From assembly GCF_000487995.2 (NCBI RefSeq), contig NZ_CP097562.1:1113001-1177000 (forward strand): DNA of 64,000 nucleotides, in the 5' to 3' direction. Source of the stretch: Mucispirillum schaedleri ASF457 (GTDB lineage: Bacteria; Chrysiogenota; Deferribacteres; Deferribacterales; Mucispirillaceae). Within the stretch, counting starts at the first letter, position 1. Each line of letters starts with the position of its first letter. The translations under genes were made by a program, and so were the position numbers. The notes under the pieces are model-generated. The model saw nothing but the letters and a program-made list of their open reading frames with translations. It was not told the DNA's origin and made no database searches. This document shows, piece by piece, positions 22,470-41,647 of this stretch.

Positions 22470-25013
22470 TTATAGAGCTGCTTTTTTCTTTAAATCGGTT
22501 AAAATCTGTATAGCCTGTATAGGTGTAATATTATCTATATCTATAGATTTAAGCTCATCTATTACGGGATGAGAATTATCAAAAACAAGTATAGGCTGCA
22601 CAAATCTTTGTTTTTGCTTAGGCAGCTTTTTTTCCTGCATAAGAGAAATGTCTTCATGGTTTTCTAAATCAGAAAGAACTTCGTTTGCTCTTTTTATAAC
22701 ACTTTCAGGAAGTCCAGCCATTTTGCCTACATATATACCATAGCTTTTATCAGCTGTTCCTTTTATGACTTTTCTTAAAAATATAACTTCATTATCCCAC
22801 TCTTCAACACTTACAGTATAGTTTTGAGCACCTTTTCCTTTTTCGCCTATTTCTGTAAGCTCAAAATAATGGGTGGCAAATAATGTTTTAGCACCAATAT
22901 TATTTAGTATATATTCAGCTACTGCCCATGCTATAGAAATACCATCAAAAGTGGATGTTCCTCTGCCTATCTCATCAAGTATAATAAGTGAATTTTTGGT
23001 AGCATTTTTTAAAATATTAGCAGTTTCAACCATTTCAACCATAAAAGTAGATTCTCCCCGTGAAAGGTTATCGCTTGCACCAACTCTTGTAAAAATCCTG
23101 TCAAGCAGTGGAATTTCTGCCATATCAGCAGGAACAAAGCAGCCACAGTGAGCCATAATTGCAATTAATGCACTGGAGCGAAGATATGTGCTTTTACCGC
23201 TCATATTAGGACCTGTTATAATTAAAAGCCTGTTTTCATCATTATCTAAATAAAAATCATTTGGCACAAACGCATCTTTACTTTTATTTTCTACAACAGG
23301 ATGTCTGCCTTCTTTTATATTTATTATACCATTTTCCAGTATTTTTGGGCGACTGTAATTATTTTTTATGCTTATATTTGCAAAAGCTGCAATAGTATCT
23401 ATCTCTGCAATAAGTTTTGCAAGCTGTCTTAAATTATCAGCCTGACTTGAAGCATATTTTCTTATATCTTGAAAAATAGAATACTCTATATCTGCAAGTT
23501 TTTCTTCTGCATTTAATATTTTATTTTCTAACTCTCTTAATTCATCTGTAATAAACCGCTCACTGTTTGCAAGGGTCTGTTTTCTTTCAAAGTATGCTGG
23601 CATTTTTGCTGCATTTATTCTTGAAACTTCAAAATAATATCCAAATACTTTATTATAGCCTATTTTCAGCTGACTTATACCAGTTGCCTTTCTTTCTCTT
23701 TCTTCTATTTCTAATATTAATGATTTGCCATTATGTTTAATATCCCTAAGTTCATCAACATGGCTGTTATACCCGCTTTTTATAATTCCACCCTCTTTAA
23801 TAGCAGCAGGTGGCTCATCATTTATTGATTTTTCAATTAAAAAATATAATTTTTCCTGAGCATCAAGTTTATATTTTGCAAATATATCAGGCACTGATTG
23901 CAGCATAGCATCAAGCTCTGGAATATTTTTTATAGAAAGTTTAAGCCATATTAAATCCTTTGGTGTGGCTCTGCCTGAAATAAGTCTTGATGTAATACGC
24001 TCTATATCAAATATATTTGATAAAAGTCCATTAACTGTGCTTAAAAACGACGGGTTATTTATAAAATATTCCACAATATCAAGCCTTGTATTAATCTGGG
24101 CAGTATTTCTCAAAGGTCTTGTAATAGTGTTTTTTAAAAACCTTGCACCCATTGGTGTAGATGTCTGGTTAAGAATAAAAAATAAAGTATTATCTTTTCC
24201 GTAATCAGATGTTGTAAGCTCTAATGTAGAAGAAGCAACACTGTCTATTATTAAATTATCTGCATCATTTAATGTAACAGGCAGCATAAGTTTTGTTGTA
24301 AGTATCAAATCATCAAGATAATCAAGGACCATAGCTAATGCCCAGATATATCCTTTATCTTCAATGAATAATGCTTTTTCACTTGTAACAGAGTAATGAG
24401 AAAGAACTCTGTTTAGTGCTGTATTATAATGCTTTCCAGAATTTCTTATAGTAACAGGTATATTATTTATATCTACATCAATATTTGCAATAATTTCCTT
24501 TGCTTCCATTGAATGAGTATTTTCTTCTAATGTATCTACTGGTATAGTTTTTAAATATGTTTCTCCAGTAGTAACATCAACTGCTGCCATGTATATTTTA
24601 TCAAGTTCTGCATAAAGACTTATTAAAAAGTTGTTATCAAATGCAACAACTGCTTCATCATCTATTGCTGTTGCAGGTGTAACAACTCTTGTAACTCCCC
24701 TTTTAACAACACCTTTAACAAGTTTAGGGTCTTCCAACTGTTCGCATATTGCTACTTTTTTACCTGCTTTCAAAAGTTTAATAAGGTATGGCATATAAGA
24801 ATGATAAGGTATACCGCATAAAGGTATTTGATTTTCTGATGATTTGTTGCGGCATGTGAGAGCAATACCTAATATTTTAGAAGCTGTAAGAGCATCATCT
24901 CCAAACATTTCATAAAAATCACCCATCCGAAAAAAAAGAATAGAATCTGGATACTGCTCTTTTATATCATAAAACTGTGCCATTGCTGGTGTAACATTTT
25001 TTGGTTTTTGCAT
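22470..25013 (-). CDS. mutS: DNA mismatch repair protein MutS
   Basis: MutS recognises mismatches and recruits MutL. The 847 residues have the MutS1 order: mismatch-binding domain with FRMGDFYEMF (Phe-x-Glu), connector and lever domains, clamp, then the ATPase domain with Walker A ITGPNMSGKSTYLR and Walker B SLIILDEIGRGTSTFDG, plus the ATHYFEL motif. The C-terminus ends shortly after a linker that mentions LEN and IDNITPIQAI, as in other MutS1 proteins. It is the last gene of a minus-strand operon (HIT, lapA, lapB, mutS), 17 bases after lapB. Confidence 0.97.
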   Translation of the reverse strand: MQKPKNVTPAMAQFYDIKEQYPDSILFFRMGDFYEMFGDDALTASKILGIALTCRNKSSENQIPLCGIPYHSYMPYLIKLLKAGKKVAICEQLEDPKLVKGVVKRGVTRVVTPATAIDDEAVVAFDNNFLISLYAELDKIYMAAVDVTTGETYLKTIPVDTLEENTHSMEAKEIIANIDVDINNIPVTIRNSGKHYNTALNRVLSHYSVTSEKALFIEDKGYIWALAMVLDYLDDLILTTKLMLPVTLNDADNLIIDSVASSTLELTTSDYGKDNTLFFILNQTSTPMGARFLKNTITRPLRNTAQINTRLDIVEYFINNPSFLSTVNGLLSNIFDIERITSRLISGRATPKDLIWLKLSIKNIPELDAMLQSVPDIFAKYKLDAQEKLYFLIEKSINDEPPAAIKEGGIIKSGYNSHVDELRDIKHNGKSLILEIEERERKATGISQLKIGYNKVFGYYFEVSRINAAKMPAYFERKQTLANSERFITDELRELENKILNAEEKLADIEYSIFQDIRKYASSQADNLRQLAKLIAEIDTIAAFANISIKNNYSRPKILENGIINIKEGRHPVVENKSKDAFVPNDFYLDNDENRLLIITGPNMSGKSTYLRSSALIAIMAHCGCFVPADMAEIPLLDRIFTRVGASDNLSRGESTFMVEMVETANILKNATKNSLIILDEIGRGTSTFDGISIAWAVAEYILNNIGAKTLFATHYFELTEIGEKGKGAQNYTVSVEEWDNEVIFLRKVIKGTADKSYGIYVGKMAGLPESVIKRANEVLSDLENHEDISLMQEKKLPKQKQRFVQPILVFDNSHPVIDELKSIDIDNITPIQAIQILTDLKKKAAL

Positions 25014-32325: not shown

Positions 32326-34623
32326 ATGAGTGAAAAAAAAGAAATAAAAGTTCAAGTAGTTTGTGTTACATATAATCAAAAAGAATATATTAAGGAAGCA
32401 CTTGACAGCTTTATAATGCAGAAAACTAATTTTGGCTATGAAGTATTAGTTGGTGATGATGGCTCTACTGACGGAACAAGTGAAATTGTTGCAGAATATG
32501 CAAAAAAATATCCTGATATTATTAAGCATATCAAACGCTCTTCTAATATAGGAGCTTTAGAAAATTTTATGGATATATGTGACAGGGTTACATCAAAATA
32601 TGCAGCATTTTGTGATGGTGATGATTTTTGGACAAATGAAAATAAACTCCAAAAGCAGTATGATTTTATGGAATCAAATAATGATGTAAATATTTGTGCA
32701 CATAAAACAAAGATTCAGGCTGATAAAGAATGGTCATTGTATGATTATTATGCCAAGCAGGATTTTATTCAGCCTAATGAAGATAATATACCATCAAAAA
32801 ATAGACTTATTTTATCAGACATTGTTTATGAATGGCCCCATACTTCATCACTTTTTATCAGGTGGAATAATATTGAAATACCTGCAAATTTAAAAACAGA
32901 TGGTTTTATTGGGGATATGCCTATGATTTTTCTGCACATGGGGCAAGGTCATCTATATATATTAAATGAAGTAATGAGTGTATACCGCAGAGGTGTTTCT
33001 GGTGTTTTTAACAATAAAACATCTATGGATGACCACTTTTTAAATACAAGACTAGAATATTTTAAAATATTAACAACATGTATAGATTACTATATAAAAC
33101 ATTATGATAGTTTTTGTATAAATAAACTGCAAGGCAGATTATGGACAGAAGCTAAAAACTATGCAAATGCAATAATTGAAAATGACAGATGGGATTTACT
33201 GACATCACTAGAAAAGCAATATCCAGAAGTTTATCAAATGACTAAAAATCTATTTTATGGATTTAATATAAGGTTAAATCAGGTAAATATATTAGGCAAA
33301 GAGAATGCTGATTTATTAAATAATAGGAAAATATTAAAAATTTTAAACCCATTTATATCATTTATTAGAAACATTAAAAATATAGTTTTTAAAATGTTTA
33401 GATTTTCGCTTTACTGGTGGTTAGCTCTTATTCCTAAAAATAAAAATCTTTGGGTTTTTTCTGGGTTTTCAAAAACATCTTATATGGATAATACTCAGTA
33501 TTTTTATGAATATATTATAAAAAATCATCCTGAAATAAAGACTGTATGGCTTACAATGGATGATAAAGTATTTGAACAGCTGAATGAAGAAAAAATGCCA
33601 TGTTATAAAATGAACTCTTTTGCAGGTTTTTGGACAATGGTTAGGGCGAAATTAGCTGTTTCTGACCATTTTAAAATGAGTGATTATACGCCAAGATACG
33701 GATTGAATGCTGGAACAAAATTTGTAAACTTATGGCATGGTGTTGGTCCTAAAAGTATGATACCTATAGGTAATGAACTCCCAAACACAACAGTTCCCGG
33801 TGCAAGATTATCATCAGATATTTTAATAAATAATGATGATGGAATAATAAATAAAATCATAAAGCCAGTTAAATATTTTTTTAAAGCACCTTTTAGAGAA
33901 CTTTTTGAAGAATATTATGGTATGGTATGCCCGGGACAGCCATTTAGGGATATTGTTGCAAACCCTTGGAAAATACCAGAAAATGCACAGCTTGCATGTG
34001 GATATCCTAGAAATATTACTATGTATGAAAATATAGAAAAAGAAGTTACTGAATATAAAATACTTTATGCTCCAACATACAGATGGAAACCTGAAACAGA
34101 GCAATTTATGGTAAAAGATTTCATAAAAAATCTTGATAAAATTAATAATTTATTAGAAAAAATTGATGCTGTTATGTATCTTAGGCTGCATCCTCATACT
34201 TGGAGAAATTACACATCTCGTATTAAAAATGCCATAGCTGTTTATCCCCGCATTGAAGTTAGTGATGAAAAAGATATTTATGCATCATTATATGAATATT
34301 CGCAGATTATAACAGACTATTCATCCATTGGTTATGACTTTTTAATTACACAAAAACCAGTTATTTACTTTGCTTTTGATTTAGATACTTTTGAGAAAGA
34401 AGAAACTACATTTAATATGCCATATAAAGAAAATTGTGCAGGCGATGTTACAAAAACCTGGGAAGAAACAATATTCTCAATAGAAGAAAATTATAACAAC
34501 CCAGACCGTCATAAAGAATTAAAAAGTAAAATATTAGAAAAGTTTTTCCCTTCTGAATATAATAATATAAACAATAGTGAAAGACTTACTGGAATATTAA
34601 AAACAAAATTAAAAATTAAATAA
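32326..34623 (+). CDS. Fusion of family 2 glycosyltransferase and CDP-glycerol/ribitol glycerophosphotransferase (TagF-like)
   Basis: In this 765-residue protein the first 300 residues are a GT2 domain (VTYNQKEYIKEALDSF, DGSTDG, DGDDFWTNENKLQKQ). From about 365 on is a TagF/TarL-like domain: WVFSGFSKTSYMDNTQYFYE, KFVNLWHGVGPKSM, YAPTYRW, YLRLHPHTW and TDYSSIGYDF. TagF-type enzymes polymerise glycerol- or ribitol-phosphate from CDP-activated precursors. The fusion implies that a sugar and a polyol-phosphate are added to the same acceptor or to alternating positions. The cytidylyltransferase needed to make the CDP-precursor is the next gene. It sits between the ATP-grasp gene (2 bases) and that gene. 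Confidence 0.9.
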   Translation: MSEKKEIKVQVVCVTYNQKEYIKEALDSFIMQKTNFGYEVLVGDDGSTDGTSEIVAEYAKKYPDIIKHIKRSSNIGALENFMDICDRVTSKYAAFCDGDDFWTNENKLQKQYDFMESNNDVNICAHKTKIQADKEWSLYDYYAKQDFIQPNEDNIPSKNRLILSDIVYEWPHTSSLFIRWNNIEIPANLKTDGFIGDMPMIFLHMGQGHLYILNEVMSVYRRGVSGVFNNKTSMDDHFLNTRLEYFKILTTCIDYYIKHYDSFCINKLQGRLWTEAKNYANAIIENDRWDLLTSLEKQYPEVYQMTKNLFYGFNIRLNQVNILGKENADLLNNRKILKILNPFISFIRNIKNIVFKMFRFSLYWWLALIPKNKNLWVFSGFSKTSYMDNTQYFYEYIIKNHPEIKTVWLTMDDKVFEQLNEEKMPCYKMNSFAGFWTMVRAKLAVSDHFKMSDYTPRYGLNAGTKFVNLWHGVGPKSMIPIGNELPNTTVPGARLSSDILINNDDGIINKIIKPVKYFFKAPFRELFEEYYGMVCPGQPFRDIVANPWKIPENAQLACGYPRNITMYENIEKEVTEYKILYAPTYRWKPETEQFMVKDFIKNLDKINNLLEKIDAVMYLRLHPHTWRNYTSRIKNAIAVYPRIEVSDEKDIYASLYEYSQIITDYSSIGYDFLITQKPVIYFAFDLDTFEKEETTFNMPYKENCAGDVTKTWEETIFSIEENYNNPDRHKELKSKILEKFFPSEYNNINNSERLTGILKTKLKIK

Positions 34624-34633
34624 GGGGTGGCTT

Positions 34634-35326
34634 ATGAATATTGCACTAATTATTGCAGGTGGTATTGGGGCAAGAATGTTGTCAGCAATACCAAAACAAT
34701 TTATAACAGTAAATGATAAACCTATTATTATTTATACATTAGAAGCATTTGAGAAACACCCAAATATTGATGCTATAGCTGTAGTATGTATTGAAGGCTG
34801 GGAAATTATCCTACAAAATTATGCAAAAGAATATAATATTACAAAGCTAAAATATATCGCCCCTTCTGGTAAATCAGGACAGGAGTCAATTAAAAACGGA
34901 TTAGATGAACTTGCAAAATTTTACAGCAGAGAAGATATAGTATTAATTCATGATGCTATTCGCCCTATGGTTTCTAGTGAGATAATTTCTGAATGTATTA
35001 ATGTAACTAGAGAAAAAGGAAATGCTGTTGTCTGCATTCCATGTCAGGAAGCAATGCTTGAAACTGTAGACGGAGCTTCTGCTGTTTCTGCATATCCTAG
35101 AGATAATTTAAAAAGAACTCAAACACCACAAGGGTTTACACTAGGCAGTATTTTAGATACACACAAAAAAGCAAAAGAAATGGGTATCACTAATTCTGTT
35201 GCCAGCTGCACCTTATTAGTTGAAACTGGACAGACTGTATATTTTTCAAAAGGGTCTGAGAAAAATATTAAATTAACAACATCAGAAGACCTTGCAATTT
35301 TTAGAGCCTTATTAAAAGGAATTTAA
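34634..35326 (+). CDS. IspD/TarI-family cytidylyltransferase (probably CDP-polyol synthesis)
   Basis: A 230-residue nucleotidyltransferase with ALIIAGGIGARM, PKQFITVNDKPII and IHDAIRPMVS. IspD enzymes have HDAARP, TarI/Bcs-type enzymes often differ there; HDAIRPMVS and the operon location (beside a TagF-like polymerase) favour activation of a pentitol or pentulose phosphate as its CDP derivative. A function in isoprenoid synthesis (ispD) cannot be excluded by sequence alone, and a second ispD elsewhere in the genome would support the first view. Confidence 0.8.
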   Translation: MNIALIIAGGIGARMLSAIPKQFITVNDKPIIIYTLEAFEKHPNIDAIAVVCIEGWEIILQNYAKEYNITKLKYIAPSGKSGQESIKNGLDELAKFYSREDIVLIHDAIRPMVSSEIISECINVTREKGNAVVCIPCQEAMLETVDGASAVSAYPRDNLKRTQTPQGFTLGSILDTHKKAKEMGITNSVASCTLLVETGQTVYFSKGSEKNIKLTTSEDLAIFRALLKGI

Positions 35327-35327
35327 A

Positions 35328-36365
35328 ATGACAATCAACACATTAGAAAATGAATATAAAAAACTTGTAGATTTATTAGGCGATGAAATTTTAAAACTTA
35401 ATAATAAGTCTTTTTTTATTACAGGTGCAACAGGGCTGGTTGCTTCTTACTTAGTAGATTTTATAATGTGGTATAATACTGCATATTCTCAAAATATATA
35501 TGTATATGCCGTATCTTCAAAATTAGAAAAATTACAAAAAAGATTTAAAGCAAATAAAAATTTATGTTTTATAGAGCAGAATTTAAATGAACCTTTAAAG
35601 AAAAAATATGAAGCTGACTATATTATACATGCAGCAAGTAATGCACACCCACTTGCCTTTTCAAAAGACCCTGTCGGCACTATGAAAACAAACTTAACAG
35701 GGACTATGAATTTATTAGAAATGATAAAAGATACTGCCGCCTGCTTTTTATACATATCTACTGGCGAAATATATGGGAATAATGCTGATAAACCATTTAC
35801 AGAAGATGATTTTGGTATGATAGATTCAAAACTTGTGCGTTCCTGCTACCCAGAATCTAAACGAGCAGCAGAAACATTATGTATGAGTTATAATCATCAA
35901 TATAATATAAAAGCAAACATATTACGCCTTTGCTATGTTTATGGTGCTGCAATTACAAATGAAAATTCTAGAGCAGATGCACAGTTTTTGCGAAATGCCT
36001 TAAATGGTGAAAAAATAATTATGAAAAGTGAAGGCTTGCAGAAAAGGACATACTGCTATGTGGCAGATGCAGTATATGCTATGCTTTATGTTATTTTATA
36101 TAGTAAAGACAGTCAGGTTTATAATGTTGCAAATCCAAACTCTATTGCTTCTATCAGAGAATATGCTGAAACTTTATCTGAACTTGCAGAAGTATCTCTC
36201 CAGTTTGAAATACCAGATGAAATAGAAAAACAGGGTTATTCTAAGCCACTTGATTCTATTCTTGATGCATCTAAACTAATGGATTTAGGCTGGCAGCCAC
36301 AGTATGATTTAAAAACAGGGTTATCACATACACTAATGATAAAAAAGGAAGAAAAGCATGTTTGA
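35328..36365 (+). CDS. NAD-dependent epimerase/dehydratase (extended SDR)
   Basis: A 345-residue extended short-chain dehydrogenase. The Rossmann motif is FFITGATGLVASYLVD, the active-site Ser is in YISTGEIYG and the YxxxK pair in SCYPESKRAAETL. It is related to nucleotide-sugar epimerases and decarboxylases, and its C-terminal half matches that group (RTYCYVADAVYAMLYV). It follows the cytidylyltransferase by one base and overlaps the aldolase-type gene by 8, so these three form a module that probably makes one CDP-linked precursor. The precise reaction is unknown. Confidence 0.85.
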   Translation: MTINTLENEYKKLVDLLGDEILKLNNKSFFITGATGLVASYLVDFIMWYNTAYSQNIYVYAVSSKLEKLQKRFKANKNLCFIEQNLNEPLKKKYEADYIIHAASNAHPLAFSKDPVGTMKTNLTGTMNLLEMIKDTAACFLYISTGEIYGNNADKPFTEDDFGMIDSKLVRSCYPESKRAAETLCMSYNHQYNIKANILRLCYVYGAAITNENSRADAQFLRNALNGEKIIMKSEGLQKRTYCYVADAVYAMLYVILYSKDSQVYNVANPNSIASIREYAETLSELAEVSLQFEIPDEIEKQGYSKPLDSILDASKLMDLGWQPQYDLKTGLSHTLMIKKEEKHV

Positions 36366-37056
36366 TAATATAAAAGAAAAAGTTTATGAAGCAAATATAC
36401 AGCTTTATAAGCAGGGATTAGTGCCTTTAACATGGGGTAATGTTTCTGCCAGAGTAGAAGATTATATTATTATTAAACCATCTGGTGTTGAATATGAAAA
36501 AATGTCGCCACAGGATATGGTTGTTTTGGATTTAGCTGGTAAAGTTATAGATGGTAAATTAAAGCCATCATCAGATACAAAAACACATTTAGAAATTTAT
36601 CATTCATGCTCTCAAATTTATAGTGTATGCCACACACACTCTAAATATGCAACTTCATACGCTCAAGCAGGAATTCCAATTAAAGCTATGGGAACGACAC
36701 ATGCAGATTACTTTTTTGGTGATATTCCCTGCACTAGAGCATTAACTTATGATGAAGTTGAAAGCGATTATGAATTAAATACAGGCAAAGTAATAGCAGA
36801 AACATTTAAAGATAAAGACTGGCTTCAAATACCTGCTGTTTTAGTTAAGCAGCATGGACCATTTACATGGGGCGGCAGTGCAGATAAAGGCGGGCTTGAT
36901 GCTGTGGAAAATGCTGTTGTTTTAGAAGAGATAGCTCAAATAAATTATCAAACAATGCTTATTAATCCTGCTGCTGTTCTACTGCCTGATTATGTTCTTA
37001 ATAAACATTATTACAGAAAACATGGTGCAGGTGCTTATTATGGACAAAAGAAATAA
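36358..37056 (+). CDS. Class II aldolase-family protein, L-ribulose-5-phosphate 4-epimerase-like
   Basis: The 232-residue protein shows the AraD/FucA family pattern: LTWGNVSARVED, KPSGVEYEKMSPQDMVVLD, DTKTHLEIY, the zinc ligands in VCHTHSKYATSYAQ and VLVKQHGPFTWGGSADKG. It is most like L-ribulose-5-phosphate 4-epimerase (AraD, UlaF, SgbE), which interconverts pentulose 5-phosphates. In a polysaccharide operon, beside a TarI-like cytidylyltransferase, it may generate the pentulose phosphate to be activated. The true substrate is inference. Confidence 0.85.
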   Translation: MFDNIKEKVYEANIQLYKQGLVPLTWGNVSARVEDYIIIKPSGVEYEKMSPQDMVVLDLAGKVIDGKLKPSSDTKTHLEIYHSCSQIYSVCHTHSKYATSYAQAGIPIKAMGTTHADYFFGDIPCTRALTYDEVESDYELNTGKVIAETFKDKDWLQIPAVLVKQHGPFTWGGSADKGGLDAVENAVVLEEIAQINYQTMLINPAAVLLPDYVLNKHYYRKHGAGAYYGQKK

Positions 37057-37069
37057 TTAAGGTTAATAA

Positions 37070-38560
37070 ATGCTTTTTAATTCCATAAGCTTTTTAATTT
37101 TCTTTCCAGTAGTTATCTTATTATACTTTATAATACCACACAGATTTAGATATATTTGGCTTTTAGCAGCAAGCTATTATTTTTATATGGCTTGGAACCC
37201 TGTATATGCTCTATTAATGCTTACATCTACTTTTATAACTTATACTAGTGGTATATTGATAGATAAAGCAAATAAAACGAGTGGGGGGGGGAATGCAGCA
37301 AAACTTAAAAACATATATGTTTCCATTAGCTTTATTTTAAACCTTTCCATTTTATTTTTCTTTAAATATTTTTATTTTGCAGTAGATAATATAAATATTT
37401 TATTATCTGCACTTCATATTCAATTAATTCAGCCAAAATTTGATATAATATTACCACTTGGTATATCATTTTATACTATGCAGATGATAGCTTATATAGT
37501 TGATATATATAGAGGTGCAAAAGCAGAAACTAATTTTATAAAATATGCTCTTTTTATATCATTTTTCCCAAAATTACTTGCAGGACCAATAGAAAGAACT
37601 GCAACTTTTCTTCCTCAACTGCAGGAAAGAAAATATTTTAATTATGATAATCTTAAAAACGGTTTATTATTAATGCTCTATGGTTATTTTTTAAAGATGG
37701 TTATAGGCGATAGAGCTGCCATTTTAGTAAATTTTGTATTTGAAAACTATGAAGCTTATATGGGGCTTGAAATATTTGTTGCAATAACAATCTATTCTAT
37801 ACAAATATATGCAGATTTTTTTGGTTATACATGTATTGCAATAGGTGCAGCACAAACTATGGGGTTTACTTTATTACAAAACTTTAACCATCCTTTTTTT
37901 GCAGTATCTGTTGGTGATTACTGGCGAAGATGGCATATATCACTTTCTATGTGGTTAAGAGATTACATATATTTTCCATTAGGTGGCAGCAGGTGCTCTA
38001 AAATAAAAAAATATAGAAATATATTAATTACTTTTTTTATAAGCGGCTTATGGCACGGTGCAAACTGGACATTTATTATATGGGGTATGATACATGGTTT
38101 AAGTATTATACTTGATGATATTTTTAAGCCAGTATTTCAAAAGATATACTCTATTTTTAATATAAATACACAATGTTTTAGTTTTAGATTATTTCAAATT
38201 ATTATAGCATTTTTAATTATTAATTATTCACGGCTCTTTTTTAGAGCTCCAGATATAGAAACTGCTGTTATTATGACAAAGCAAATGTTTAGTGTTTGGA
38301 ACCCTTGGATATTTTTTGATAACTCACTTTATGATATGGGACTTTCTAGAAAAGATTTCTATGTATTATGCTTTTCTATTATTATTTTATGGGCAGTATC
38401 TTTTATGCAGGAAAAAGGTATCAAAATAAGAGAAGAACTGGCGAAACAAAATTTAGTTTTTAGATGGATATTATATTGGATAGCAATTTTTGGAATACTG
38501 ACTTTTGGTGTTTATGGCACAGCATATAATGCTAATCAATTTATTTATTTTCAGTTTTAG
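37070..38560 (+). CDS. MBOAT-family O-acyltransferase (AlgI/DltB-like), with G9 tract
   Basis: The 496-residue polytopic membrane protein has the MBOAT pattern: the conserved His in ISGLWHGANWTFIIWG near residue 329, RRWHISLSMWLRDYIYFPLGG and a FFPKLLAGPIERT motif. AlgI-like members move acyl groups (often acetyl) across the inner membrane for addition to exported polysaccharides; the SGNH-type protein encoded next is the likely partner. An uninterrupted run of nine G at 37283-37291, in the codons for residues 72-74, would shift the frame if one base were lost or gained. Confidence 0.93.
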   Translation: MLFNSISFLIFFPVVILLYFIIPHRFRYIWLLAASYYFYMAWNPVYALLMLTSTFITYTSGILIDKANKTSGGGNAAKLKNIYVSISFILNLSILFFFKYFYFAVDNINILLSALHIQLIQPKFDIILPLGISFYTMQMIAYIVDIYRGAKAETNFIKYALFISFFPKLLAGPIERTATFLPQLQERKYFNYDNLKNGLLLMLYGYFLKMVIGDRAAILVNFVFENYEAYMGLEIFVAITIYSIQIYADFFGYTCIAIGAAQTMGFTLLQNFNHPFFAVSVGDYWRRWHISLSMWLRDYIYFPLGGSRCSKIKKYRNILITFFISGLWHGANWTFIIWGMIHGLSIILDDIFKPVFQKIYSIFNINTQCFSFRLFQIIIAFLIINYSRLFFRAPDIETAVIMTKQMFSVWNPWIFFDNSLYDMGLSRKDFYVLCFSIIILWAVSFMQEKGIKIREELAKQNLVFRWILYWIAIFGILTFGVYGTAYNANQFIYFQF

Positions 38561-38567
38561 GTGATAT

Positions 38568-39995
38568 ATGATAAAAAAAGTTATTTCATTAATAATATTT
38601 ACTGTATTAACAATATTAATTGCTGTTAATTATGAAGATATAATAAAAAATAAATATGAATCATATAATATTAAACAATACTATAATGAAAAAAATAATA
38701 TAGATGTATTTTTTCTAGGAACAAGTAGAGTTTACTTTACCATGTCTCCAATGGAAATATGGCATAAATATGGGATTGTTTCATACAACCGTGGAACTGC
38801 TCAGCAATATTATAAAGTATCATACTTATTTTTAGAAGAAATACTGTCAAAATATAATCCAAAACTTATAATATTTGATACAGCTTATCTTGAAGATTTA
38901 TCTTATAAAGAAAAACAAACTATGATACATTTACAAAATTTAAAAAATGATTTTTTTAAGTTTTATGCATACAAATATATTTATAAAAATACAGATGATA
39001 TTTTAAAAAACATAAATACTATAAAACAATATCATTCAAGATGGAAAGAATTAACTAAGTATGATTTTACATACGACACTTTTTGGAAAGGTAGATTTTC
39101 AGGCTCTTCTTATGGCTCATGGTTATCTAAAATACACTCAATAAATAGTGTTAATAGATATGAAAATGATAATATTACACAAATAGAATTATATCCAGAA
39201 ACAATAAAATATGCAAATATGATGGTAGATTTAGCAGCCAAACATAACTGTAATATTTTATTTGTAAAAATGCCTTTTTCTGCTAATTTATTACATTCAC
39301 AGCTGGATAAAGCATTTAAACTTTATGCTGAAGAAAAAGGATGGAATTTTATTAATTATAATATAATGTATGATGAACTAAATTTAAATTTTAATAGAGA
39401 TTTTCGTGACTGGTCTCATACAAACCTTTATGGTTCTCGTAAAGTTATGGACCACCTTATACCATACATTATAAAGCATTATAATATTCAGTCCCATAAA
39501 AATGATCCAAAATATGCTTCATGGAATGAAGATTATATTAAATATGCAAGAGCAGTAAACAGAGAAGAAATTAGAGAGCTTAAATCTTTTACAGAATGGA
39601 AAAATTTAGCTTTTTATGACAACTATACTGTAATGATTGCTGCAAATGGTGATGTTTTAAAAAAATTACCTGATAATTTAAAAAATGATTTAAAATCTTT
39701 TGGACTAAAAAAATATAATTCAGATAAGGCAAATATGCGTTATGCTGCTGTAATTGATGAAAATCAAATATTTTTTGAAGAAATATCAAATAAGCCTGTA
39801 AAATACAAAGGCAGAATGAAAAATATTATAAATCTGTTTATATCATCAGATGGCAAAGCGGCAATAAATGTAAGTGGCAAAAATAGAAGTAAAAATAAAT
39901 ATGGTTTAAATTTTGTAATTTATGATAAAGTGAATAGAGAAATAGTTGACAGCATCTATATAGACCCTGATAAACCTGATGTGGTTAGAAGATAA
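38568..39995 (+). CDS. SGNH-hydrolase-like partner of the MBOAT acyltransferase (DltD/AlgX-type)
   Basis: The 475-residue protein starts with one membrane helix (VISLIIFTVLTILIAVNYED), so the rest is periplasmic. Near residue 52 is FFLGTSRVYFTMSP, where GTSR supplies the candidate nucleophilic Ser, and near residue 283 is RDWSHTNLYGSRKVMDHL, with the DxxH dyad. This pattern is shared by DUF1574, AlgX, DltD and related proteins that act with an MBOAT partner. It lies 7 bases downstream of the MBOAT gene. The C-terminal 150 residues look less conserved. Confidence 0.8.
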   Translation: MIKKVISLIIFTVLTILIAVNYEDIIKNKYESYNIKQYYNEKNNIDVFFLGTSRVYFTMSPMEIWHKYGIVSYNRGTAQQYYKVSYLFLEEILSKYNPKLIIFDTAYLEDLSYKEKQTMIHLQNLKNDFFKFYAYKYIYKNTDDILKNINTIKQYHSRWKELTKYDFTYDTFWKGRFSGSSYGSWLSKIHSINSVNRYENDNITQIELYPETIKYANMMVDLAAKHNCNILFVKMPFSANLLHSQLDKAFKLYAEEKGWNFINYNIMYDELNLNFNRDFRDWSHTNLYGSRKVMDHLIPYIIKHYNIQSHKNDPKYASWNEDYIKYARAVNREEIRELKSFTEWKNLAFYDNYTVMIAANGDVLKKLPDNLKNDLKSFGLKKYNSDKANMRYAAVIDENQIFFEEISNKPVKYKGRMKNIINLFISSDGKAAINVSGKNRSKNKYGLNFVIYDKVNREIVDSIYIDPDKPDVVRR

Positions 39996-40074
39996 TTCTA
40001 ATATTAATATAATATATATACTCTTGCTTTTTTGTAGTATTTCATATATAAAAAAACAGGAGAAAAAATATTTA

Positions 40075-40893
40075 ATGGAAAACAATAATCAGGAAACAGA
40101 AGACCAGAATTTTATAACAAATTCAAACATATATAAACACTATCAATATAAAACTGCTCTTTATAACCTTGTAAAGCGAGATTTTATTGTAAAATACAGA
40201 CGCTCTATTTTAGGTATATTATGGAGTGTTTTAAACCCTTTTTTAATGATGGTAGTGATAAGTGCTGTTTTTTCTTATATGTTTCGCTTTGATGTGGAGC
40301 ATTACCCTGTTTATTATCTTACTGGCTACATTCTATTTACAATGTTTACATCATCTACAAGTGGTGCCATTTCTTCCATTATTAATTCTGCTATGCTTAT
40401 AAAAAAAATGTATATTCCAAACTATCTTTTTCCTGTAGAAAAATGCTTATTTGAATTTATAAATACTTCTGTTTCACTTATAGCACTTGCTGCAGTGCTT
40501 ATATGGTTTAAAATACCTGCTGCTTTAAGCTGGCTGCTTATACCTTTGCCATTTATATATATATTTATATTTTCTGTTGGCATAGCTTTTATACTTTCCT
40601 CATTAAATGTATATTTTAGAGATATTGGTCATTTATACAGTGTTGTTACAAAAGTGTTAATATATGCTACACCAGTTTTTTATCCTGTTACTATACTCCC
40701 ACCTGAAATAATGCAGATAATGAACTGGAACCCTTTGTATCATTTTATAGATTATTTTAGAATAATAATTTTAGATGGTCAAATACCTTCACTGAATGCA
40801 AACTTGATATGTGCTGCTTTTGCTTTTGGCTCTTTTTTCACTGGTGCTGTTGTATTTAGACTGCTGCAGCGTAAATTTATATTATATATTTAA
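40075..40893 (+). CDS. ABC transporter permease for polysaccharide export (Wzm/TagG-like)
   Basis: The 272-residue protein has about six membrane helices and the ABC-2-type signature: KRDFIVKYRRSILGILWSVLNPFL, YPVYYLTGYILF and VFYPVTILPPEIMQIMNWNPL. I chose the ATG at 40075, preceded by AGGAG, not the first in-frame ATG at 39979 that overlaps the preceding gene. It pairs with the ATPase encoded next. Together they should export the completed polymer across the inner membrane. Confidence 0.92.
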   Translation: MENNNQETEDQNFITNSNIYKHYQYKTALYNLVKRDFIVKYRRSILGILWSVLNPFLMMVVISAVFSYMFRFDVEHYPVYYLTGYILFTMFTSSTSGAISSIINSAMLIKKMYIPNYLFPVEKCLFEFINTSVSLIALAAVLIWFKIPAALSWLLIPLPFIYIFIFSVGIAFILSSLNVYFRDIGHLYSVVTKVLIYATPVFYPVTILPPEIMQIMNWNPLYHFIDYFRIIILDGQIPSLNANLICAAFAFGSFFTGAVVFRLLQRKFILYI

Positions 40894-40906
40894 AAGAAGA
40901 GATGAT

Positions 40907-41647
40907 ATGGATAATATTGCAATAGATGTAAAAAATGTTTCTGTTAAATTTAACCTTGCAATGGCTAAATATGACGGGCTGAAAGAGTATGTTATAAATC
41001 TTATTAAAGGCAGAGTTTTATATCAGGAATTTCAGGCATTGAAAGATGTGAGCTTTCAAGTAGCAAAAGGGGAAGCTTTAGGCATTGTTGGCTTTAATGG
41101 CTCTGGCAAAAGCACTCTTTTAAAAGTAATAGCAGGTATATTACGACCAGACAGCGGCAAAGCAAAAGTTTATGGCTCTATTGCTCCACTCATTGAGCTT
41201 GGTGCTGGTTTTGACCATAATTTAACTGCAAAAGAAAATATATTTTTTAATGGTGCACTCCGTGCAATACCTAGAAAAAAAATACAAGAAAAATATGATG
41301 AAATAGTAGATTTTGCAGAGCTGCATGATTTCATAGATGTGCCAATTAAAAACTTTTCTTCAGGTATGAGAGCAAGACTTGGTTTCGCTGCTGCAATAAT
41401 GTTTGACCCAGATGTATTAATAGCAGATGAAGTATTATCAACTGGAGATTATAAGTTTAAAGCAAAATGTGAAACAAAAATAAATCAAATGCGTAAAAAC
41501 GGCCTTACGATTTTATTTGTATCTCATCATGCTGCACAAGTAAAAAATGTATGCTCTAAGGCAATATGGCTTGACAAAGGTCAGATAAAAATGCATGGCA
41601 ATACAGACGAAGTTTGCAAGGCATATGAAAACAGTAATAAAAAATAA
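40907..41647 (+). CDS. ABC transporter ATP-binding protein for polysaccharide export (Wzt/TagH-like, short form)
   Basis: At 246 residues this ATPase contains Walker A GFNGSGKST, the signature FSSGMRARL and Walker B VLIADEVLSTGD, with the extended N-terminal helical stretch (FNLAMAKYDGLKEYVINLIK) typical of Wzt/TagH proteins. It lacks the C-terminal sugar-binding domain of the E. coli O8/O9 Wzt, so it would not gate export by recognising a modified chain end. An AGAAGAG ribosome site precedes the ATG at 40907. It closes the polysaccharide operon. Confidence 0.93.
   Translation: MDNIAIDVKNVSVKFNLAMAKYDGLKEYVINLIKGRVLYQEFQALKDVSFQVAKGEALGIVGFNGSGKSTLLKVIAGILRPDSGKAKVYGSIAPLIELGAGFDHNLTAKENIFFNGALRAIPRKKIQEKYDEIVDFAELHDFIDVPIKNFSSGMRARLGFAAAIMFDPDVLIADEVLSTGDYKFKAKCETKINQMRKNGLTILFVSHHAAQVKNVCSKAIWLDKGQIKMHGNTDEVCKAYENSNKK

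Follow-up and report, generated by a model that had tools for sequence, protein, structure and literature searches.

A G9 tract in an MBOAT acyltransferase gene of Mucispirillum schaedleri: a probable phase-variation switch among many homopolymer tracts of the genus

The window analysed here is a stretch of 64,000 nucleotides (positions 1113001–1177000) of the genome of Mucispirillum schaedleri ASF457, which comprises 2,347,083 bases in a single contig. On its forward strand, within a polysaccharide cluster, lies a gene at 37070–38560 with an open frame of 496 amino acids, encoding a DltB-like MBOAT O-acyltransferase. Family membership could be assigned from the profile PF03062 (E 4.6e-28; 98.9 bits against a curated cut-off of 27) together with the catalytic histidine in the invariant motif W328-H329-G330. 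DltB is the closest relative both by sequence (PDB 6bug, E 4e-24) and by the fold of the structure model, for which TM-scores of 0.62/0.73 were obtained. Assignment to the DltB equivalog itself (TIGR04091) could be ruled out, with 149.8 bits against a curated cut-off of 375. The nearest relatives of the protein belong to Mucispirillum, and no relatives were found among the viral contigs searched. Upstream in the same cluster and on the same strand are located a fusion of GT2 and CDP-glycerol:glycerophosphotransferase (32326–34623; PF04464, PF00535) and, immediately before the MBOAT gene, the genes for an IspD-like cytidylyltransferase, an NAD-dependent epimerase and a class II aldolase (34634–37056). 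The gene that follows (38568–39995, forward strand) encodes a putative SGNH acyl-transfer partner of 475 amino acids, for which no Pfam match was found. It features one N-terminal helix as well as GxS and DxxH motifs, with G51, S53 and H284 conserved, and its model resembles DltD (6pfx/3bma) and PatB (7tlv) at E-values of about 1e-4 to 6e-4 and a low whole-chain TM-score. Directly downstream, also on the forward strand, come a Wzm-like ABC-2 polysaccharide exporter permease (39979–40893; PF01061) and a Wzt-like exporter ATPase (40811–41647; PF00005), whose true start probably lies downstream of the first GTG. The MBOAT gene and its SGNH partner were found side by side in all seven genus loci examined; the surrounding genes differ. 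From this gene context, the exported polymer of the cluster would be the acylation substrate of the MBOAT–SGNH pair, and premature termination in the MBOAT gene could exert a polar effect on the downstream exporter genes.

The MBOAT gene carries an uninterrupted run of nine G at 37283–37291 of the forward strand (GGGGGGGGG), with T and A on either side, which is proposed to act as a slipped-strand switch. The first-pass annotation of this DNA had described a G9 run in a sequence of about 30% GC, coding for Gly-Gly-Gly at residues 72–74 of an MBOAT acyltransferase, and had considered the gene to be ON as sequenced. All of this could be confirmed: the window has a GC content of 30.8%, the run is aligned with codons 72–74 (GGG GGG GGG) of a PF03062 protein, and the frame is open. 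Its further prediction, that the loss or gain of one G truncates the enzyme near the N-terminus, was borne out by frame computation, in which tract lengths of 7, 8, 10 or 11 let the protein end at residue 79–91, ahead of both the MBOAT domain (154–385) and the invariant His329. In the predicted structure, the tract site lies at the hinge between helices 44–69 and 73–114. No other G or C run of the window reaches this length, the next being a G8 at 810–817 and two C6. As an uninterrupted G/C run of at least eight, the tract is long enough to slip and exceeds chance expectation, and gain or loss of a unit would change the frame. Among other microsatellites in the window (unit 2–6, at least five copies), we observed two (TA)5 and nothing else. 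The G8 at 810–817 lies in frame on the forward strand in a sulfatase-family membrane enzyme resembling LTA synthase and phosphoglycerol transferase (PF00884), and constitutes a second candidate switch of the window.

For comparison, a set of eight orthologous loci from seven species was used (63–100% identical, one assembly per species). The tract is carried by five of these eight, three of which are open and two of which are frame-broken at the tract, so that homologues in both the ON and the OFF state could be found, a contrast that is drawn between species and in which some of the OFF calls made in MAGs could be assembly errors. G9 with an open frame is present in the genome studied here, in G043-C8 and in G040 (loci L033 and L034 for the latter two). 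In G043-C5 (L038), a G9 with other flanks separates two different frames, and the same holds for a G11 in G047 (L037), which is less certain because of a nearby contig edge. The tract is absent and the frame open in G041, G044 and G045 (L035, L036 and L039). In the OFF genes, the two sides of the tract were searched piecewise, with no frame repaired. The broken copies display full-length downstream frames, have kept the HGANW motif and show a pN/pS of 0.11–0.13 against their closest relatives; purifying selection and the intact downstream frames thus argue that they are not decayed pseudogenes. In four genomes, a second group of MBOAT paralogues (about 37% identity) carries G9 at the same codon as the window gene. 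A third MBOAT type has its G9 near codon 229, where the frame is broken in G041 but open in G045. The homologous loci L170 and L172 are open and broken at the tract, respectively. G041 has lost the tract from this MBOAT gene but has an in-frame G9 at codon 274 of the SGNH partner next to it (L035, 8330–8338); within the MBOAT–SGNH module, the switch may have been relocated to the partner.

Differences of a single G are also observed in other genes. A FAD oxidoreductase is open with G9 in G041 and closed with G10 in G043, with 24 amino acids before the tract being 100% identical and 351 amino acids after it 93% identical, and a GT8 glycosyltransferase is likewise open with G9 in G041 and closed with G10 in G043. 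For both genes, tract length and frame relate as expected. In a DUF6056 gene, where the number of G is equal, a flanking A makes the difference between the open frame of G043 and the closed frame of G041.

Genome-wide, we counted 49 G/C tracts of at least eight. The count is taken from a list of 54 tracts that is complete for lengths of at least seven, since all 7-mer placements total 158, the same total as is obtained from the listed tracts. Compared to a first-order Markov model with the dinucleotide content of the window, exact G9/C9 runs are about 65-fold in excess (33 observed per genome, 0.51 expected), and only 0.017 runs of at least nine would be expected per window. G8 (6 against 2.9) and G10 (8 against 0.09) were also counted above expectation, and two G11 were observed. 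G6 (30 against 89) and G7 (5 against 16) are both depleted about threefold, and together with the G9 excess this renders the length spectrum bimodal instead of the tail of a chance distribution. Across the genus, exact G9 and G6 runs stand at 227:185. The corresponding figures are 6:54 for a sister genus within the family and 26:5669 for five other families of the order. Separately, 60 exact G9 tracts were found in G039, a genome of sister genus g3, and runs of G8 or longer are likewise abundant in members of the families f7 and f9, with fewer G9.

In three genomes, 116 tracts of at least eight were classified as 49 coding-open, 16 coding-closed candidates, 24 promoter-spacer and 27 other, where the coding-closed class is a heuristic and no proof, and conclusions rest on cases with homologues on both sides of the tract. 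Of the 65 coding tracts, 61 read as G on the sense strand, and the genes concerned serve glycan, surface, signalling and respiratory functions. In the genome studied here, the targets are two MBOATs, glycosyltransferases (GT2, GT9), an FdtA-like enzyme and phosphoglycerol transferases of the sulfatase type, besides histidine kinases, a chemotaxis receptor, an M66 peptidase, surface proteins with Big_2 and PKD domains and a gene for type I restriction specificity. Four molybdopterin oxidoreductases complete the set; they are paralogues with near-identical leaders (positions 608, 1014143, 1070453 and 2270982 of G000:C1; L113, L121, L124 and L152), in which G9 is located at codon 48, right after a twin-arginine lipoprotein-like leader, out of frame in three and in frame in one, making them candidates for phase-variable respiration. 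The restriction specificity gene HsdS (G000:C1:680945, L116) is split at a G8 between its two halves. A comparable split between halves is known from phase-variable hsdS genes elsewhere, and the gene may underlie a phasevarion.

The promoter-spacer class, which goes beyond what the first-pass annotation had considered, as do the approximately fifty tracts genome-wide, features a TTGACA-N-poly(C)-N-TATAAT-like arrangement with the tract located between the -35 and -10 elements. These tracts account for the 24 of 116 mentioned above, with spacers of 14–19 and a mode of 15. In the genome studied here, they are found at nine loci (L119, L128, L130, L137, L141, L142, L145, L146 and L147); those elsewhere in the genus are among L175–L204. 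A strict version of the pattern matched 34 times across nine of the ten genus genomes and once in a sister genus; the other 40 genomes gave no match, and the reversed-pattern control returned one. At least 15 of the 24 downstream open reading frames start with a lipoprotein signal, and one more (L244) fits by eye.

Given these observations, the competing explanations can be weighed. The one that survives best, which we nevertheless consider improbable, is mutational drift, in which a replication or repair bias expands G runs into neutral or mildly harmful hot spots without adaptive switching. The genome-wide distribution of the tracts, with about 10 of 49 in places without evident role, would be in line with it, as would the richness of the related families f7 and f9 in G8 and longer runs. 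However, such a bias should not leave G6 and G7 depleted rather than elevated, nor does it account for the promoter-spacer tracts, all 24 of which have C on the sense strand, compared to 0 in the opposite orientation and a mean of 1.3 (maximum 7) for shuffled flanks. The recurrence at the same codon in paralogues, the location in surface and glycan genes and the presence of mutS and mutL further argue against drift. Slippage of the RNA polymerase or the ribosome, which would lead to a fixed mixture of products and not to heritable switching of the DNA, is quite improbable as well. Homopolymer runs can cause transcriptional slippage, and the frame-broken paralogues, such as the three molybdopterin oxidoreductases that are all G9, might still yield some product by this route; yet the tract lengths differ between orthologues in the DNA itself (G9, G10 and G11), and tracts in promoter spacers cannot act through translation. 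We regard it as very improbable that a Gly-Gly-Gly linker is selected at the protein level, with the G run being incidental codon choice. ON copies do have Gly at this site and most copies preserve the frame, but the tract-less orthologues, at 69–70% identity, encode KQD or GGE instead, which shows the Gly triplet to be dispensable, and the linker at the site is shorter in relatives outside the genus. Moreover, GGG makes up only 11% of the Gly codons of the window, MBOAT codons 72–74 alone among its four Gly triplets are spelled with nine G, and copies occur that are frame-broken at this same tract. An artefact of sequencing or assembly in homopolymer length can be practically dismissed, for although homopolymers are error-prone and the OFF calls stem from single assemblies, same-codon tracts recur in independent assemblies of different species and the frame in the window is open.

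We therefore return to phase variation, the reading that the first-pass annotation had favoured and that the comparison of sequences supports through the tract lengths and flanks of orthologues, open and broken copies, dispensable glycines, purifying selection and genome-wide enrichment. On this comparative basis, it is highly probable that the G9 is a translational phase-variation switch of the MBOAT gene, although three of the eight close orthologues have lost the tract, which speaks against this reading. In the proposed model, slipped-strand mispairing during replication would add or remove one G, the frame would be lost downstream of codon 74, and a stub of about 78–90 residues lacking the catalytic half would result (OFF), until a later slip would restore the frame (ON). 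Switching would thereby vary the DltB/DltD-like MBOAT–SGNH acylation of the glycerophosphate-containing surface polysaccharide of the cluster, and the MBOAT switch would be one site of a genus-wide phasome. Slippage rate, reversibility and acylated substrate are features that we infer. Both mutS and mutL were found in the genus, and in the window a MutS_I domain is encoded at 24654–24992 on the reverse strand in a frame of 859 codons. Loss of mismatch repair as the cause of the long tracts could accordingly be ruled out.

Homopolymers between -35 and -10 elements are known as switches from porA and opc of Neisseria and from fim of Bordetella, and the promoter-spacer tracts share with these a homopolymer that would alter spacer length. 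In contrast to these examples, Mucispirillum displays one architecture, always with sense C, which is reused before many different, mostly lipoprotein genes in nine genus genomes. Among systems with intragenic tracts, the poly-G/C phase variation of Campylobacter jejuni is similar in combining intragenic and intergenic G/C tracts with a mode of G9–G10 and tens of tracts per genome (PMC8355987, PMC6321876), in targeting glycan and surface genes, and in belonging to a low-GC, mucus-dwelling spiral gut bacterium. There, tract lengths are kept at G9–G10 by slip biases, with gain at G8 and loss from G11 upwards, and in this species, which has no mismatch repair, the rates are 1e-4 to 1.6e-3 per division (PMC8355987). 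Mucispirillum differs in belonging to another phylum, in its conserved TTGACA-polyC-TATAAT promoter class and in the targeting of respiratory oxidoreductase paralogues. It also differs in possessing MutS and MutL, so that switching may be slower, and by analogy the same length equilibrium would be reached at a lower rate. A resequencing study of the altered Schaedler flora reported, as data not shown, that there was little sign of extensive indels across the community, and single-base changes were not addressed (PMC9600240).

Switched acylation of surface glycans is itself familiar from the phase-variable O-acetyltransferases oafA of H. influenzae and oafB of S. Typhi (PMC9558356). These are AT3 proteins, whereas the Mucispirillum enzyme belongs to the MBOATs of the DltB/AlgI/PatA type and has its putative SGNH partner as a separate protein. 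With DltB–DltD, AlgI–AlgJ/X and PatA–PatB it has in common the MBOAT fold, the invariant His and an SGNH partner gene next door, but unlike Dlt it resides in the cluster of an ABC-exported polysaccharide of a Gram-negative bacterium. No phase-variable MBOAT was found in a literature search covering few subscription journals, and the ranked results of further searches there included no report of phase variation in Mucispirillum or Deferribacterota; in the M. schaedleri genome paper, phase variation and homopolymers both go unmentioned. The mechanism is already known, and what appears to be new is the MBOAT–SGNH acylation module as its target.

Taking both tract classes together, we consider it likely that the genus Mucispirillum maintains a phasome of about 20–50 homopolymer switches, consisting of sense poly-G in glycan, surface, restriction and respiratory genes and of the reused TTGACA-polyC-TATAAT lipoprotein promoters, which would bet-hedge anaerobic respiration and surface acylation in the gut. 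The abundance of M. schaedleri has been linked to inflammation. The species is a core bacterium of the mouse gut and belongs to the altered Schaedler flora (PMC5285517, PMC9600240). Were some fifty genes to flip randomly, a clonal gnotobiotic strain would be a mixture of surface and respiratory types, and this would bear on the reproducibility of defined floras and on interactions with phages, IgA and competitors. As a commensal, M. schaedleri lends itself to the question of which factors select phase states in vivo.

Tracts were also noted at three further loci of this genome. A G10 at G000:C1:2103557–2103566 (L149) lies six bases 5' of the ATG of a GNAT acetyltransferase, at the position of the Shine-Dalgarno sequence. 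A mid-gene C9 is open in the gene for an M66 peptidase/TagA-domain protein with a ricin-type lectin domain (G000:C1:1556926–1559607; L136), and a sulfatase-type gene (G000:C1:2207030–2209051; L150) contains two separate in-frame G9 tracts.
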